Part shown: positions 28,219 to 32,922 of the stretch, piece by piece
Numbering within the stretch: position 1 is the first letter of the stretch
Layout: every line of letters begins with the position of its first letter
Assembly: GCF_000621845.1 (NCBI RefSeq)
Contig: NZ_JHXF01000006.1
Location: forward strand, 62,001-126,000
DNA from: Ruminococcus flavefaciens MA2007
Lineage (GTDB): Bacteria; Bacillota; Clostridia; Oscillospirales; Ruminococcaceae
Reading direction: 5' to 3'
Length of the DNA: 64,000 bases
Notes under the pieces: generated by a model
Seen by the model: only the letters and a program-made list of their open reading frames with translations
What the model was told of the DNA's origin: nothing
Databases searched by the model: none
Translations under genes and position numbers: made by a program

Positions 28219-30120
28219 TTACATCAATTCACAAATGAGATTCGAGAACTCTACAGGATCCTCAATGCTCATGCCTTCAATAAGGAGCGCCTGATCGTAG
28301 AGGAGCTTTGCGTACTTGCCCAGCTTGTCCTTGTCGCCACCCTCGCTGAGAGATTTGAGCTTGCCGAATATCTCATGTTCGGGATTAATCTCCAGAACGC
28401 GCTGTGCGTGTATCTTCTGGTCGGTTGGCATAGAGTTGAGCACCTTTTCCATTTCGAGAGATATCTCGCCCTCGCTGGTAAGGCATACAGGGTGGGATTT
28501 CAGTCTCTGTGAGAGTGCTACCTTTGTTACCTTGCCGTTAAGAGCCTCTTTCAGCTGGCTCAGCAGGTCTGCGCTCTCCTCCTCCTTAGCCTTGAGCTCC
28601 TCTTTCTTTTCGGGAGTTTCAAGACCGAGGTCGTCAGCAGATACGGACTTGAACTCCTTGTCCTTGTACTGCATGAGAGCTTTTAATGCAAATTCGTCGA
28701 TATTATCGGTGAGGTAGAGTATCTCGAAGCCGTTGTCCTTTACGAGCTCAGTCTGCGGCAGCTGCTCGATACGTGCTGCGCTCTCGCCTGTAGCGTAGTA
28801 GATGTACTTCTGATCCTCGCGCATACCTGTAACGTACTCGTCGAGAGTTACCAGCTTCTGCTCGTTGGAAGATGTGAACATCAGGAGATCCTGAAGCTTG
28901 TCCTTGTTCATGCCGAAGTCGCTGTATACGCCGTATTTGAGCTGTAAGCCGAATGCCTTCCAGAACTCCTCATACTTCTCACGCTCGTTTTTCAGCATTT
29001 TCTTCAGCTCGTTGCTGATAGTCTTTTCAATGCTCTTGGCGATAGCTTTAAGCTGTCTGTCATGCTGGAGCATCTCACGGGAGATATTCAGCGACAGGTC
29101 TTCCGAGTCAACAAGTCCCTTTACAAAGCTGAAATAGTCGGGGAGCAGGTCTGCGCACTTGTCCATGATGAGGACGCCGTTTGAGTAGAGCTGCAAGCCC
29201 TTTTCGTACTCCTTTGAGTAGTAGTCGAATGGAGCCTTTGACGGGATATAGAGAAGTGCGTTATAAGCAGGCATCTCGTTGCTGATGTGTGAGTATTTCA
29301 GAGGCTCGTTGTAATCAAAGAACTTCTCGGTGTAGAAGTGCTTGTAGTCCTCTTCCTTGAGCTCTGTTTTGTTCTTCTTCCAGAGAGGAGTCATGCTGTT
29401 GAGAGTCTCGACTTCGAGGTAATCCTCATATTCGAGAGGCTTCTTGGCTTCCTTTTCCTCCTCTGTCTGCTCCTTTGGACGGCTGTGGGATACTTCCATT
29501 TTGATAGGGAAGCGGATATAGTCGGAATACTTGCTTACAAGGGACTTTATCCTGTACTGGTCGAGGAACTCGCCGTAGTTCTCGTCGTCGGTGTCGTCCA
29601 GCATTTCGAGGATAATTTCGGTACCTGTGCTCTTCTTGTCGGCTTCTGTGATAGTGTAGCCGTCAACGCCCTCGGACTCCCACTGATAAGCCTTATCGCT
29701 GCCGTAAGCCTTTGAGATAACGGTCACTTTTTTGGCTACCATGAATGCGGAGTAGAAGCCTACGCCGAACTGTCCGATTATCTGGTTGTCCTCTTCAAGC
29801 TTGTTCTCGTTCTTGAACTTGAAAGAGCCGCTGTTTGCGATAGTACCGAGGTTGTTTTCAAGCTCCTCCTCGGTCATACCGATACCATTATCGGTGATTT
29901 TGAGGGTACGGCTGTCCTTGTCGGCGGATATCCAGATAGCGAAATCGTCTTTATTGAGACCGACCTTGTCGTCGGTGAGAGATTTGAAATACAGCTTATC
30001 AATAGCGTCGCTTGCGTTGGAGATAAGCTCGCGGAGGAAGATCTCCTTATGAGTATAGATCGAGTGGATCATCATATCCAGCAGTCTTTTGGACTCTGCT
30101 TTGAACTGTTTTGTTTCCAT
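28219..30120 (-). CDS. htpG: Hsp90-family molecular chaperone
   Basis: ATP-dependent chaperone of the cytoplasm. The 633-residue protein has the Hsp90 N-terminal ATPase motifs [20 protein letters not shown] and [14 protein letters not shown], the middle domain with the catalytic arginine in NISREMLQ, and the C-terminal dimerisation domain; length is typical of bacterial HtpG. It is monocistronic, with its own promoter, a perfect CIRCE operator just downstream of it, and a strong terminator, so HrcA control is expected. In B. subtilis htpG is not under HrcA. Confidence 0.97.
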
Positions 30121-30143: not shown

Positions 30144-30170
30144 TTAGCACTCTATCTCTTAGAGTGCTAA
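30144..30170. promoter_or_regulatory. CIRCE operator (HrcA binding site)
   Basis: TTAGCACTC (30144-30152), nine spacer bases and GAGTGCTAA (30162-30170): an exact match to the CIRCE consensus. It sits between the htpG promoter and start codon, where bound HrcA would block transcription until heat shock. Confidence 0.95.
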
Positions 30171-30253: not shown

Positions 30254-30283
30254 TTGACAAATACTATTCTTTTAGTATATAAT
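30254..30283 (+). promoter_or_regulatory. Promoter of the T-box leader transcript
   Basis: TTGACA (30254-30259) and TATAAT (30278-30283) with an 18-base spacer, divergent from the htpG promoter. The transcript would start near 30290, cross a heptamer repeat block and then enter the T-box. Confidence 0.75.
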
Positions 30284-30285
30284 AG

Positions 30286-30345
30286 TTTTTAGTGATTAGT
30301 GCATAGTGATTAGAACTAAGCACTAATCACTAAAAACTAATTACT
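30286..30345. repeat. Heptamer repeat hairpin (TTAGTGA type)
   Basis: Imperfect 7-base units (TTAGTGA, TTAGTGC, ATAGTGA, TTAGAAC) are followed by complementary units (AAGCACT, AATCACT, AAAAACT, AATTACT), giving inverted arms of about 25 bases. It lies at the 5-prime end of the T-box transcript. Confidence 0.7.
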
Positions 30346-30377
30346 GAGAAAGGCATAGCAGTCAGAGTAGCTTTTTT

Positions 30378-30577
30378 GCGGACTTTCAGAGAGTGTGCGG
30401 AGGGTGCGAGCACATGGTCGGGAGAAGTGAAGTGCGGCTGTCAGCTTCGGCAGGGAAGCGCATAGGCGTGTGTATCTGTCGGCGTTTCGTCCGCGTTAAG
30501 GATAAGACGAGTTCAAGACGGAGTGGAAACGAGCATTTGCGCCTCCGAGGTATACCCTCGGGGGCTTTTGTTATTTT
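30378..30577 (+). promoter_or_regulatory. T-box riboswitch, tRNA-Cys specificity predicted
   Basis: A transcription-attenuation leader that reads tRNA charging. Stem I is closed by GCGGAC (30378-30383) with GTCCGC (30489-30494) and contains an AGAGAG motif at its base and GAAGTGAAG before a candidate specifier TGC (30433-30435), a cysteine codon. The T-box bulge reads GTGGAAAC; its TGGA (30524-30527) would pair with a tRNA ending U-CCA, and tRNA-Cys has U at that position. CGGAG (30519-30523) pairs with CTCCG (30543-30547) as antiterminator, in competition with the terminator stem 30541-30564 and its T-rich tail. Uncharged tRNA-Cys should thus turn on the downstream genes. Confidence 0.82.
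30541..30577 (+). terminator. Regulated terminator of the T-box leader
   Basis: GCCTCCGAGG and CCTCGGGGGC flank a short loop and are followed by TTTTGTTATTTT. The left arm is shared with the antiterminator. The next gene's ribosome binding site begins about 3 bases after the T-rich tail. Confidence 0.85.
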
Positions 30578-30589
30578 AAGGAGGTTTGC

Positions 30590-30991
30590 GTGGGATTTAT
30601 CAACAGGTGGATACCTCTTGAAGAAAAGGTTTTTGATGTACCGGGGTTCGGATCCGTCGATCCGGGGCAGCTTACTATTAATGACGAAAAAAATGTATTC
30701 ATGTTTTATTATTGGACAAACATAGACCATCCTGCTGAACAATATTTTGCTTTTTACTGGAAAGATGTATGTTTTAATGTCATTATGGAGTATAGCTTTA
30801 TAGATGATCATACGATCAAATGGGAATTGAGCAGTGTAAAACAGCTCGATTATGATAATGAAGTTATTGATATGGAAGAAGTAAAAAAAGATCTAAGAGA
30901 TGCATTTATGGTATATGGCATAGATGGATTTGAATACAAAGCTCCGAATGCCGTTCCACAACCTGAAATAAAGGTTGTATGTGATTTTTGA
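30590..30991 (+). CDS. Unknown protein, first gene behind the cysteine T-box
   Basis: A 133-residue soluble acidic protein that I do not recognise. It starts at GTG 30590 with AAGGAGG six bases before. Aromatic residues are frequent (FMFYYWTN, YFAFYWKDVCF), and the C-terminal part is helical; no signal or membrane segment. Its DNA is clearly more AT-rich than the flanking genes, pointing to horizontal gain. Size, composition and its pairing with a second unrelated short gene recall polymorphic-toxin immunity proteins, but no toxin is nearby and this is only a guess. Only one cysteine-rich trait could link it to the T-box, and it has just two cysteines. Confidence 0.6.
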   Translation: MGFINRWIPLEEKVFDVPGFGSVDPGQLTINDEKNVFMFYYWTNIDHPAEQYFAFYWKDVCFNVIMEYSFIDDHTIKWELSSVKQLDYDNEVIDMEEVKKDLRDAFMVYGIDGFEYKAPNAVPQPEIKVVCDF

Positions 30992-31012
30992 TATATTAAA
31001 TGGAGGACAGAT

Positions 31013-31390
31013 ATGAATATAATAAAGTATCCCTCGGACGAGGCGGTAAACGAAGCCGTAAAAAACGACAGCCGATTCCTTGCGGCAGTAAGCCTTGACG
31101 GAAGCAAAGCCTATGTAGGTGCGGCTGATGACGCAGGTGACCACATAGCGCTTCTTGAAGCCTTTGACGAGTTCAGTCCCGCAGGCTTTTTCAGGCTGAG
31201 CTTCGACAGCCTGACCGCAGAGTGGACGTTCTCATGTCCGCGCAATTACAAGGGCATAGCCGCAGACAGCGAGCGCATGGACGCGTACTATCGCGACGGA
31301 CTGCGCGTACTGCCCGAGTTTCTGGTGATGTTCGGGTATTTCTCAAAGCTGAAGATAAAGAACCCACCGCCTGAAATATGGGCGTTCTGA
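31013..31390 (+). CDS. Unknown protein, second gene behind the cysteine T-box
   Basis: A 125-residue soluble protein of unknown family. It begins MNIIKYPSDEAVNEAVKND, with an alternating helix-strand character and a C-terminal hydrophobic segment VLPEFLVMFGYFSKL too short and polar for a membrane span. It contains one cysteine. It lies 21 bases after the previous gene with GGAGG as ribosome binding site, so the two are cotranscribed. Base composition is closer to the genome norm than that of its upstream neighbour. Confidence 0.6.
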   Translation: MNIIKYPSDEAVNEAVKNDSRFLAAVSLDGSKAYVGAADDAGDHIALLEAFDEFSPAGFFRLSFDSLTAEWTFSCPRNYKGIAADSERMDAYYRDGLRVLPEFLVMFGYFSKLKIKNPPPEIWAF

Positions 31391-31405
31391 ACAGTCGTTA
31401 GCCTT

Positions 31406-31472
31406 GTAGGGGCGGATATTATCCGCCCGAAAATAAATGCTTAACTTGCGGACGCCCAAAGGGCGTCCCTAC
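31406..31472. repeat. Dispersed palindromic repeat (GTAGGGG family) before cysS
   Basis: GTAGGGGCGGATATTATCCG at the left forms a hairpin with its own right half (GGGCGGAT/ATCCGCCC); GGACGCCC/GGGCGTCC follows and the unit ends CCCTAC at 31472. It separates the two unknown genes from cysS; I see no promoter in this gap. Confidence 0.85.
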
Positions 31473-31500
31473 AAACATAAATGTTTTTGGAGGAATAAAA

Positions 31501-32922
31501 ATGCAGTTATACAATTCATTATCCCATAAAAAGGAAGAATTCGTGCCCCACGCTGAGGGCAAGGTCAATATGTACACCTGCGGACCTACGGTGTACCACT
31601 ACGCTCACATAGGCAACCTGAGAAGCTACATCATGGAGGATATCCTCGAAAAATATCTCCGCTTCACAGGATACGACGTTAACCGCGTTATGAACATCAC
31701 TGACGTGGGACACCTCACCAGCGACGGCGACACAGGCGACGATAAGATGCTCAAGGGCGCTAAGCGTGAGCACAAGACTGTCATGGAGATAGCCAAGTTC
31801 TACACTGACGCTTTCTTCGGCGACTGCGACAAGCTCAACATAAAGAAGCCCGATGTTGTAGTGCCTGCTACTACTTATATCGACGAGTTTATCCGCGTTA
31901 TCAGCGTGCTTATGGACAAGGGCTACGCTTACGAGGCTGGCGGAAACATCTACTTCGATACATCAAAGCTTGAAAAGTACTACGTTTTCAACGATTTCAA
32001 CGAGGAAGACCTTGCAGTAGGCGTCCGTGAGGGCGTTGAGGCTGACGAGAACAAGAGAAACAAGGCTGACTTCGTGCTTTGGTTCACAAAGTCAAAGTTC
32101 GACGACCAGGAGCTCAAATGGGACAGCCCATGGGGTATCGGCTACCCCGGCTGGCACATCGAGTGCTCATGCATAAGCATGAAGAACAACGGCGAGTACC
32201 TCGATATACATTGCGGCGGTATCGACAACGCTTTCCCTCACCACACCAACGAGATAGCTCAGTCTGAGGCTTACCTCGGACATAAGTGGTGCAACTACTG
32301 GTTCCATGTGCTCCACCTCAATACCAACAGCGGCAAGATGAGCAAGAGCAAGGGCGAGTTCCTGACGGTATCACTTCTTGAGGAAAAAGGCTACAAGCCT
32401 GTGGTATACCGTTTCTTCTGCCTGCTCTCACACTACAGGAAGTCACTTGTGTTCTCATGGGAGAACCTTGACAATGCTGTAGTTGCCTACAATAAGCTCA
32501 TTGAGAAGATAGCTCCTCTTACTAAGGAGAACGGCGGCGATATCGACAAGGCTGAGTATGACCGTCTTATGAAGGACTTCACAGACGCTCTTGACAACGA
32601 TATCAACACCGCTATGGGTATCACAGTTATATACGACGTGCTGAAATCCAAGGCAAATGGGGCTACAAAGCTTGCTCTTATCGCTAAGTTCGACGAAGTT
32701 CTCGGACTTGACCTTATTGCAAATGCTAAGGAGCTTGCAGAAAACGCAGGTTCGGCTTCTGCTGATATCCCAAGTGAAGTTCTTGAACTGGTCGAACAGC
32801 GCAAGGCTGCACGTAAGGACAAGAATTTCGCATTGGCAGACGAGCTCCGCGACAAGATAGCAGCTCTGGGCTATGAGGTCAAGGAAACAAGACAGGGCAC
32901 GGAGATAAACAAGCTTAATTAA
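31501..32922 (+). CDS. cysS: Cysteinyl-tRNA synthetase
   Basis: Charges tRNA-Cys with cysteine. The 473-residue class I synthetase has HIGN (36-39) as its HIGH motif and KMSKS at 279-283; the zinc site that selects cysteine is C27, C222, H247 and E251. The C-terminal helical anticodon region is normal in length. TTGGAGG precedes ATG 31501. It is the natural target of the cysteine T-box at 30378, but that leader is about 920 bases upstream with two unknown genes and a repeat between. No separate promoter is visible. Confidence 0.97.
   Translation: MQLYNSLSHKKEEFVPHAEGKVNMYTCGPTVYHYAHIGNLRSYIMEDILEKYLRFTGYDVNRVMNITDVGHLTSDGDTGDDKMLKGAKREHKTVMEIAKFYTDAFFGDCDKLNIKKPDVVVPATTYIDEFIRVISVLMDKGYAYEAGGNIYFDTSKLEKYYVFNDFNEEDLAVGVREGVEADENKRNKADFVLWFTKSKFDDQELKWDSPWGIGYPGWHIECSCISMKNNGEYLDIHCGGIDNAFPHHTNEIAQSEAYLGHKWCNYWFHVLHLNTNSGKMSKSKGEFLTVSLLEEKGYKPVVYRFFCLLSHYRKSLVFSWENLDNAVVAYNKLIEKIAPLTKENGGDIDKAEYDRLMKDFTDALDNDINTAMGITVIYDVLKSKANGATKLALIAKFDEVLGLDLIANAKELAENAGSASADIPSEVLELVEQRKAARKDKNFALADELRDKIAALGYEVKETRQGTEINKLN

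Follow-up and report, generated by a model that had tools for sequence, protein, structure and literature searches.

A predicted tRNA-Cys T-box operon in Ruminococcus flavefaciens MA2007 with two genes, one of them apparently inserted, ahead of cysS

T-box leaders specific for tRNA-Cys occur in other Firmicutes mainly before cysS or cysES, according to PMC2940859, and unknown proteins under T-box control, several of them called 'tRNA-ligase related', are reported by Wels et al. 2008 (PMC2494555). Here we describe a related locus in a 64,000-nucleotide stretch of Ruminococcus flavefaciens MA2007 (contig NZ_JHXF01000006.1, positions 62,001 to 126,000; hereafter the window), whose genome comprises 3.39 Mb in 28 contigs. 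In it a predicted tRNA-Cys T-box leader precedes two genes without a family model, here called gene A and gene B, and then cysS, which encodes cysteinyl-tRNA synthetase. The locus shares with the Firmicutes Cys T-boxes, as represented by RF00230 and PMC2940859, the UGC specifier, the UGGA of the bulge, the competition of antiterminator and terminator, and a terminal aminoacyl-tRNA synthetase gene, but it differs in the two genes that come before cysS and in a bulge that reads UGGAAAC and not UGGNACC. It is like the set of Wels et al. (PMC2494555) in having unknown genes under a T-box, although the available portion of that set holds no Cys case and its main text contains zero occurrences of cysS, cysE, or Ruminococcus. 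Literature searches combining T-box with cysS, cysE, or cysteine, T-box with Ruminococcus, and R. flavefaciens with cysteine or cysS, which covered few subscription papers, returned nothing on this operon. We read the layout as a single transcription unit of promoter, T-box, terminator, gene A, gene B, and cysS, in which gene B is an older member and gene A a later arrival, and from the sequence comparisons below we consider this explanation very probable. The regulator is ordinary and its specificity clear; the gene B family is the unexpected part.

The presence of a Cys T-box, first proposed in an earlier note made from the sequence alone, was borne out by an Rfam search in E-value mode, where RF00230 matched the leader over model positions 1–219 of 219 (70.5 bits, E 6.1e-15). 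The RF00230 alignment places the specifier as GAA-G-UGC-GG. Pattern searches recovered AAGTGC in all 38 cysS-linked T-boxes of the genus (GAAGTGC in 37 and AAAGTGC in one, in the same alignment columns where visible), and the specifier is intact at 13 of the 13 loci of the window's clade. The bulge of the window leader begins UGGA. ARAGORN, applied to 30 tRNA loci and then to 13 stretches (the loci overlap), found one tRNA-Cys gene, with the anticodon GCA; because its acceptor stem is followed by U (U73), UGGA fits a tRNA ending in UCCA. Specifier and bulge each independently indicate tRNA-Cys, so far as base pairing can be predicted, in agreement with what the note had claimed for them. With charged tRNA-Cys, RNA polymerase would stop at the terminator. 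The anticodon of uncharged tRNA-Cys would instead read UGC in stem I while its UCCA end paired with the bulge, and in the tRNA-bound leader the antiterminator would form, allowing gene A, gene B, and cysS to be transcribed together.

The competing stems noticed earlier in the leader also hold in relatives. Of the 38 cysS T-boxes, 36 (35 distinct rows, without the irregular L097 and L122) were aligned over their 3′ part, and the antiterminator and terminator structures were drawn from the window's own row, a choice that favours them. In the antiterminator 93.1% of cells are paired and 5 of the 10 pairs show two-sided changes; in the terminator 96.3% are paired and 7 of the 10 pairs show such changes. 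The covariation score of either helix was matched by none of 500 shuffles, and sliding the partner lowered it strongly. The two helices are predicted to be mutually exclusive, and both covary in relatives. In the window the terminator consists of 10 pairs followed by TTTTGTTATT, as identified by scan. Folding the leader as a single sequence gave no useful signal (z −1.29).

Comparison with R. flavefaciens YL228 (locus L135) separates the histories of the two genes. Its leader is near-identical to that of the window, with both promoter hexamers present at identical spacing, and the AAGGAGG that follows is separated by five bases from the ATG of gene B, with no gene A. In the window AAGGAGG precedes the GTG of gene A, a separate GGAGG precedes gene B, and the net difference is a gain of 423 bp. 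On this evidence gene A appears as an insertion between terminator and gene B, for which YL228 retains the empty site, and it seems to have taken over the Shine-Dalgarno sequence that serves gene B in YL228. Gene A would have entered later, at the Shine-Dalgarno sequence, capturing AAGGAGG and leaving gene B with GGAGG, and recombination at short Shine-Dalgarno repeats may have been the route. A relative of gene A at locus L215 has AGGAGGTTT before its start. If this reconstruction is right, the locus offers a clean case of one foreign gene acquiring amino-acid control at a stroke, by arriving downstream of a T-box terminator and using an existing ribosome-binding site, with the empty site still present in a close relative.

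Gene A has a scattered distribution. In a search of 125 congeneric genomes (own included), 115 gave no match and 10 held a match or relative; the relatives in the 9 other genomes share 29–52% identity, the best two (52% and 49%) lie in unrelated surroundings, and only in the window does the gene stand at the T-box–cysS position. The window's own genome carries a second, interrupted match. At locus L217 (584–1863) one genome carries three relatives of gene A in tandem, separated by near-identical spacers. The earlier note had described both genes as deviant in base composition. This is the case for gene A, with a guanine-cytosine (GC) content of 0.351, but not for gene B (0.532), given 0.491 for cysS; at third codon positions (GC3) gene B and cysS stand at 0.619 and 0.629.

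In order to see what usually separates the T-box from cysS, up to 1.6 kb upstream of cysS was examined for T-boxes and for cysE, aroB, gene B, and X, a protein of approximately 172–174 aa found between cysE and cysS (gene A is known for the window only). Of 60 congeneric genomes, 57 yielded cysS, and the census comprises 55 loci in 54 genomes (G045 twice) plus the window, with G033 (start missing) and G040 (fragment) excluded; L096, which has hardly any upstream sequence, was left out of the Rfam scan (54 of 55 scanned), and L084, L098, and L127 are shortened by contig ends. A T-box on the cysS strand was found at 37 of the 55 other loci, hence 38 with the window. Among these the order is T-box-B-cysS at 12, T-box-cysE-cysS at 8, T-box-cysE-X-cysS at 6, T-box-cysS at 5, T-box-cysE-B-cysS at 4, T-box-aroB-cysS at 2, and T-box-A-B-cysS at the window alone. 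Something lies between T-box and cysS at 33 of 38 loci, so the space is often occupied, and the T-box directly before cysS, the arrangement that the earlier note suggested looking for in relatives, exists but is a minority in the genus (5 of 38). The cysE gene is absent from the examined stretch at all 13 loci of the window's clade.

Gene B is placed by these data as an older member of the operon with host-like GC content that recurs before cysS. It stands between T-box and cysS at 16 of the 37 other T-box-positive loci and before cysS at 18 of the 55 other loci examined, and its closest named relative among the matches listed is that of YL228 (98% identity). Relatives turned up in 36 of 99 genomes, every one of them congeneric (own included), and often away from cysS; among 60 congeners these 36 have a relative, while none was detected in the other 24. 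A genome scan yielded 150 relatives, of which the best 80 were all examined. Thirty of them lie before cysS, 28 with a same-strand upstream T-box by a purpose-built profile. Among the other 50, five have a T-box directly upstream whose specifier reads UAC (Tyr), all above the Rfam cut-off (L198, 139.5 bits; L187, 134.5; L167, 133.8; L184, 129.6; L202, 112.6), with L187 and L184 scored as G057:C102 and G034:C105, contigs of matching length; L184 is arranged as T-box-B-tyrS (Pfam on the same gene as L074). At L176 and L181 a T-box lies downstream of the gene B relative. A gene B tree, with many forks unresolved and the root unknown, contains a branch of 30 rows, all cysS-linked (100/99) and with long inner branches, which holds 30 of the 33 cysS-linked copies. 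The 54-row mixed branch includes three further cysS-linked rows and the five Tyr rows as one clade (93/87), and its members sit in varied operons.

The alternative that genes A and B are both foreign and were inserted between T-box and cysS, which the earlier note favoured on composition, meets these results directly. The gene B family does look mobile, with relatives on 19 viral contigs and in many unrelated operons, so that gene B may once have come from outside. Its GC and GC3 values are host-like, it precedes cysS at so many other loci, and nearly all cysS-linked copies fall in one branch; a recent joint insertion is refuted by YL228, which has gene B without gene A. We consider the shared foreign origin highly improbable. 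The note's either/or choice between inserted genes and members of a cysteine-starvation response instead splits, because gene B has normal GC content and recurs between T-box and cysS: gene A is the apparent insertion, and the idea of foreign genes gaining a ready-made switch stands for AT-rich gene A, inserted behind the Cys T-box, and falls for gene B.

A second alternative is that both genes function in the cysteine-starvation response and that gene A was acquired because it is helpful. The recurrence of gene B by cysS, including in T-box-cysE-B-cysS operons, and the other gene B clade behind Tyr T-boxes would suit it. Against this, gene A is at this place in one genome only, its relatives elsewhere occupy unrelated places and once a tandem triplet, and gene B relatives are undetected in 24 of 60 congeners. 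The Tyr association is a single clade, and if one simply assumes a gene for every 1100 bases, 50 loci would show at least one such event with a probability of 0.16; for these reasons it was dropped as proof of gene B function. A joint role of both genes is possible, though we think it unlikely.

Several observations weigh against a Cys T-box operon with a later-inserted gene A. The leader's score is under the Rfam curated cut-off of 93 bits, and because of this the default scan of the window was empty, with no T-box reported anywhere in it at the gathering threshold. A genome-wide T-box search recovered the same leader at E 3.7e-15, with 11 matches at E ≤ 10, of which 8 exceed the cut-off. The 38 cysS-linked T-boxes score 60–104 bits and the 13 loci of the window's clade 60.0–85.6 bits. 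In all 13 of these, bulge position 6 is A and not C (UGGAAAC in 11, UGGGAAC in 2), giving a 3′ half of AAC; A stands at this position in none of the 25 other cysS T-boxes (23 by pattern; L083 and L084, missed by the pattern, read from the alignment). By pattern the 3′ half is ACC at 20 of these loci and ACA at 3, and in L083 and L084 it is ACC. In addition, an A-G mismatch interrupts the upper antiterminator helix (A2) at 9 of the 13 loci. These bulge and helix changes may explain part of the low score, and because of them the switch may be weak. Further, no T-box was detected at 18 of the 56 cysS loci within the sequence examined, some of it shortened; these 18 hold none of the genes sought in 8 cases, cysE-cysS in 6, cysE-X-cysS in 2, and B-cysS in 2. 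The footprint of the insertion is just 5 bases and could be chance. Finally, gene A contains a promoter-like site matching 9 of 12 consensus positions (30827–30856) and a terminator-like site of 7 pairs (30958–30978), so that the leader could have lost part of its hold on gene B and cysS.

Two further explanations draw on these points. One holds that the T-box is decaying and the operon nearly constitutive, as the clade-wide C-to-A change, the frequent A2 mismatch, and the clade's low scores would suggest; the intact specifier at all 13 loci, the retained and covarying terminator and antiterminator, and the near-identity of the leader between the window and YL228 make decay improbable. The other gives cysS its own promoter downstream of genes A and B, leaving only these two under the T-box. 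The gap with its palindromic repeat and the weak promoter-like and terminator-like sites inside gene A could be taken in its favour, while T-boxes stand directly before cysS at 5 loci of relatives or before cysE-cysS at 8. The earlier note had itself named an independent cysS promoter as evidence that would count against it, and none was found: scanning 31391–31500 detected neither promoter nor terminator, where the same scan of the region gave 4 sites resembling promoters and 3 resembling terminators, compared with 2.6 and 1.2 in shuffled sequence. The absence of a promoter here, together with short gaps between gene B and cysS in some relatives (14 in L158), favours co-transcription, and we regard a separate cysS promoter as very improbable. 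Under the preferred reading, of a T-box operon extending through both genes, read-through to cysS would follow from the same tRNA response. The start of cysS lies about 920 bases past position 30580 with the palindromic repeat between it and gene B, as had been described.

Relatives of gene B were also recovered from 19 viral contigs (L286–L304; 33–43% identity by tblastn), some of them near-duplicates with identical B rows, and one phage record and one plasmid match as well. An S24/helix-turn-helix (HTH) repressor gene lies within 150 bases upstream at 14 of the 19 viral loci, a recombinase gene within 1.6 kb downstream at 12, and both at 11, counts in which the queries themselves (six repressors, three recombinases) are included. 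Of the genes tested with Pfam, all 6 upstream ones proved to have S24 and HTH domains and all 3 downstream ones recombinase domains. The same neighbour test on 52 genome loci (L163–L214) gave 2 repressors, 9 recombinases, and 1 locus with both, and at the 28 loci L135–L162 neither an S24 repressor nor a recombinase was found within the ranges tested. In the window gene B lies between gene A and cysS, not beside such a pair. The purpose-built profile detected a T-box at 0 of the 19 viral gene B loci, and in a quick tree all 20 viral rows (the 19 plus the phage record) fall in the mixed branch.

These positions recall ltp, a superinfection-exclusion gene of temperate-phage lysogeny modules (PMC3952083): gene B relatives likewise occur in lysogeny regions, by an S24 repressor and a recombinase, a likeness of position alone. 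By the same source Ltp is a lipoprotein, whereas the gene B of the window is chromosomal and stands before cysS. One could speculate that the gene B family passes back and forth between the lysogeny regions of temperate phages and operons of the host, and that separate branches were placed under Cys and Tyr tRNA-sensing switches and act when the aminoacyl-tRNA pool collapses, a scenario to which we assign a rather low probability. If it were true, gene B might protect translation, or the lysogen, when the cell is infected or starved, and through the T-box a phage-type gene would respond to stress or infection. The libraries searched hold no model of the family, which connects aminoacyl-tRNA synthetase operons under T-boxes with the lysogeny regions of phages, a connection that makes its function testable.

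Neither protein resembles a described family in the searches made, and Pfam on the 28 members of alignment A1 and the 13 of alignment A2 gave weak and inconsistent matches (best E 0.035 and 0.02). Gene A had no match in Pfam, NCBIfam, or PADLOC (PHROGs best E 0.17). Searches for it among plasmids and phages (E 0.01) were negative, as was one of IMG/VR, a search in which a single-protein query finds close relatives only. Its structure gave no confident match to the PDB (Foldseek, none at E ≤ 0.001), and a test for a GNAT fold reached a best Z of 6.5 to HAT1 (root-mean-square deviation (rmsd) 3.4, 94 aligned), below the tool's telling level. Gene B likewise had no match in Pfam, NCBIfam, or PADLOC (PHROGs best E 0.35) and a best E of 0.12 against PDB sequences. 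Its AlphaFold2 model has a mean predicted local distance difference test (pLDDT) of 90.1 and found no confident structural match in the PDB or BFVD (Foldseek, none at E ≤ 0.001). In an ADF-H/gelsolin test it stayed below a clear match, with a best Z of 5.2 to a stay-green protein (rmsd 3.7, 104 aligned) and at most 5.0 to ADF-H proteins.

Table 1 Predicted features of the cysS locus, in positions of the window
Feature	Coordinates	Strand	Basis
Sigma-70 promoter of the T-box transcript, TTGACA-18-TATAAT	30254..30283	+	12/12 consensus (scan)
AT-rich inverted repeat in the promoter-to-T-box gap, member of a dispersed repeat	30285..30345	.	Sequence, motif count
T-box leader, specifier UGC (Cys)	30347..30549	+	Full-length RF00230 match, 70.5 bits, E 6.1e-15
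Antiterminator with T-box bulge UGGAAAC	30519..30547	+	Alignment of cysS T-boxes, covariation
Intrinsic terminator, overlapping the antiterminator 3′ arm	30541..30565	+	Scan, covariation
Shine-Dalgarno AAGGAGG, before gene A here and before gene B in YL228	30578..30584	+	Junction alignment with L135
Gene A, 133 aa, AT-rich, GTG start at 30590, apparently inserted	30590..30991	+	Absent from L135
Shine-Dalgarno GGAGG, now preceding gene B	31002..31006	+	Sequence, junction alignment
Gene B, 125 aa, cysS operon partner in part of the genus	31013..31390	+	
Gene B–cysS gap with palindromic repeat (31406 on), 110 bases	31391..31500	.	Sequence, scan
cysS, cysteinyl-tRNA synthetase, 473 aa	31501..32922	+	tRNA-synt_1e E 1.3e-93

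The inverted repeat between promoter and T-box is partly missing in YL228, and its motif has 83 matches in the genome (at most 2 mismatches), compared with 16 for a reversed control pattern. Other gene B loci show features of their own. A gene resembling a zeta-toxin kinase lies directly upstream of gene B at L165, L183, L188, L199, and L296 (Pfam on L296 only); because only 4 of the 52 genome loci and one of the 19 viral ones show this arrangement, the two were not retained as a pair. At L163 a 22-base direct repeat brackets the gene B copy (around 4001 and past the stop) and spans the Shine-Dalgarno sequence and start codon. At L130 an RT-5 RNA (2656–2760; 92.2 bits) lies near the genome's second gene B copy, with a reverse transcriptase-like gene, so judged by reading, further on.

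Among the other genes that precede cysS, X occurs at L078, L079, L080, L085, L091, L093, L094, and L095, and the two members scanned (L078 and L080) had no Pfam match. The aroB gene lies between Cys T-box and cysS in two genomes (L111 and L124; Pfam on L124), and further small genes, four-helix-bundle-like by reading, lie between gene B and cysS in G044 and G041. That the cysE of the sister operons has moved under another T-box in this genome was considered and rejected: the best match (C8:132661) is a longer acetyltransferase gene far from the T-box at C8:44028. A tRNA-Val-Asp-Gly-Cys cluster (G000:C8:132094–133146) adjoins a longer gene resembling serine acetyltransferase. Upstream of the operon, at 30144–30170, the repeat TTAGCACTC-N9-GAGTGCTAA lies between the divergent htpG (28219–30120, − strand) and a promoter-like site (30204–30175), and we take this repeat to match the CIRCE operator of HrcA perfectly.

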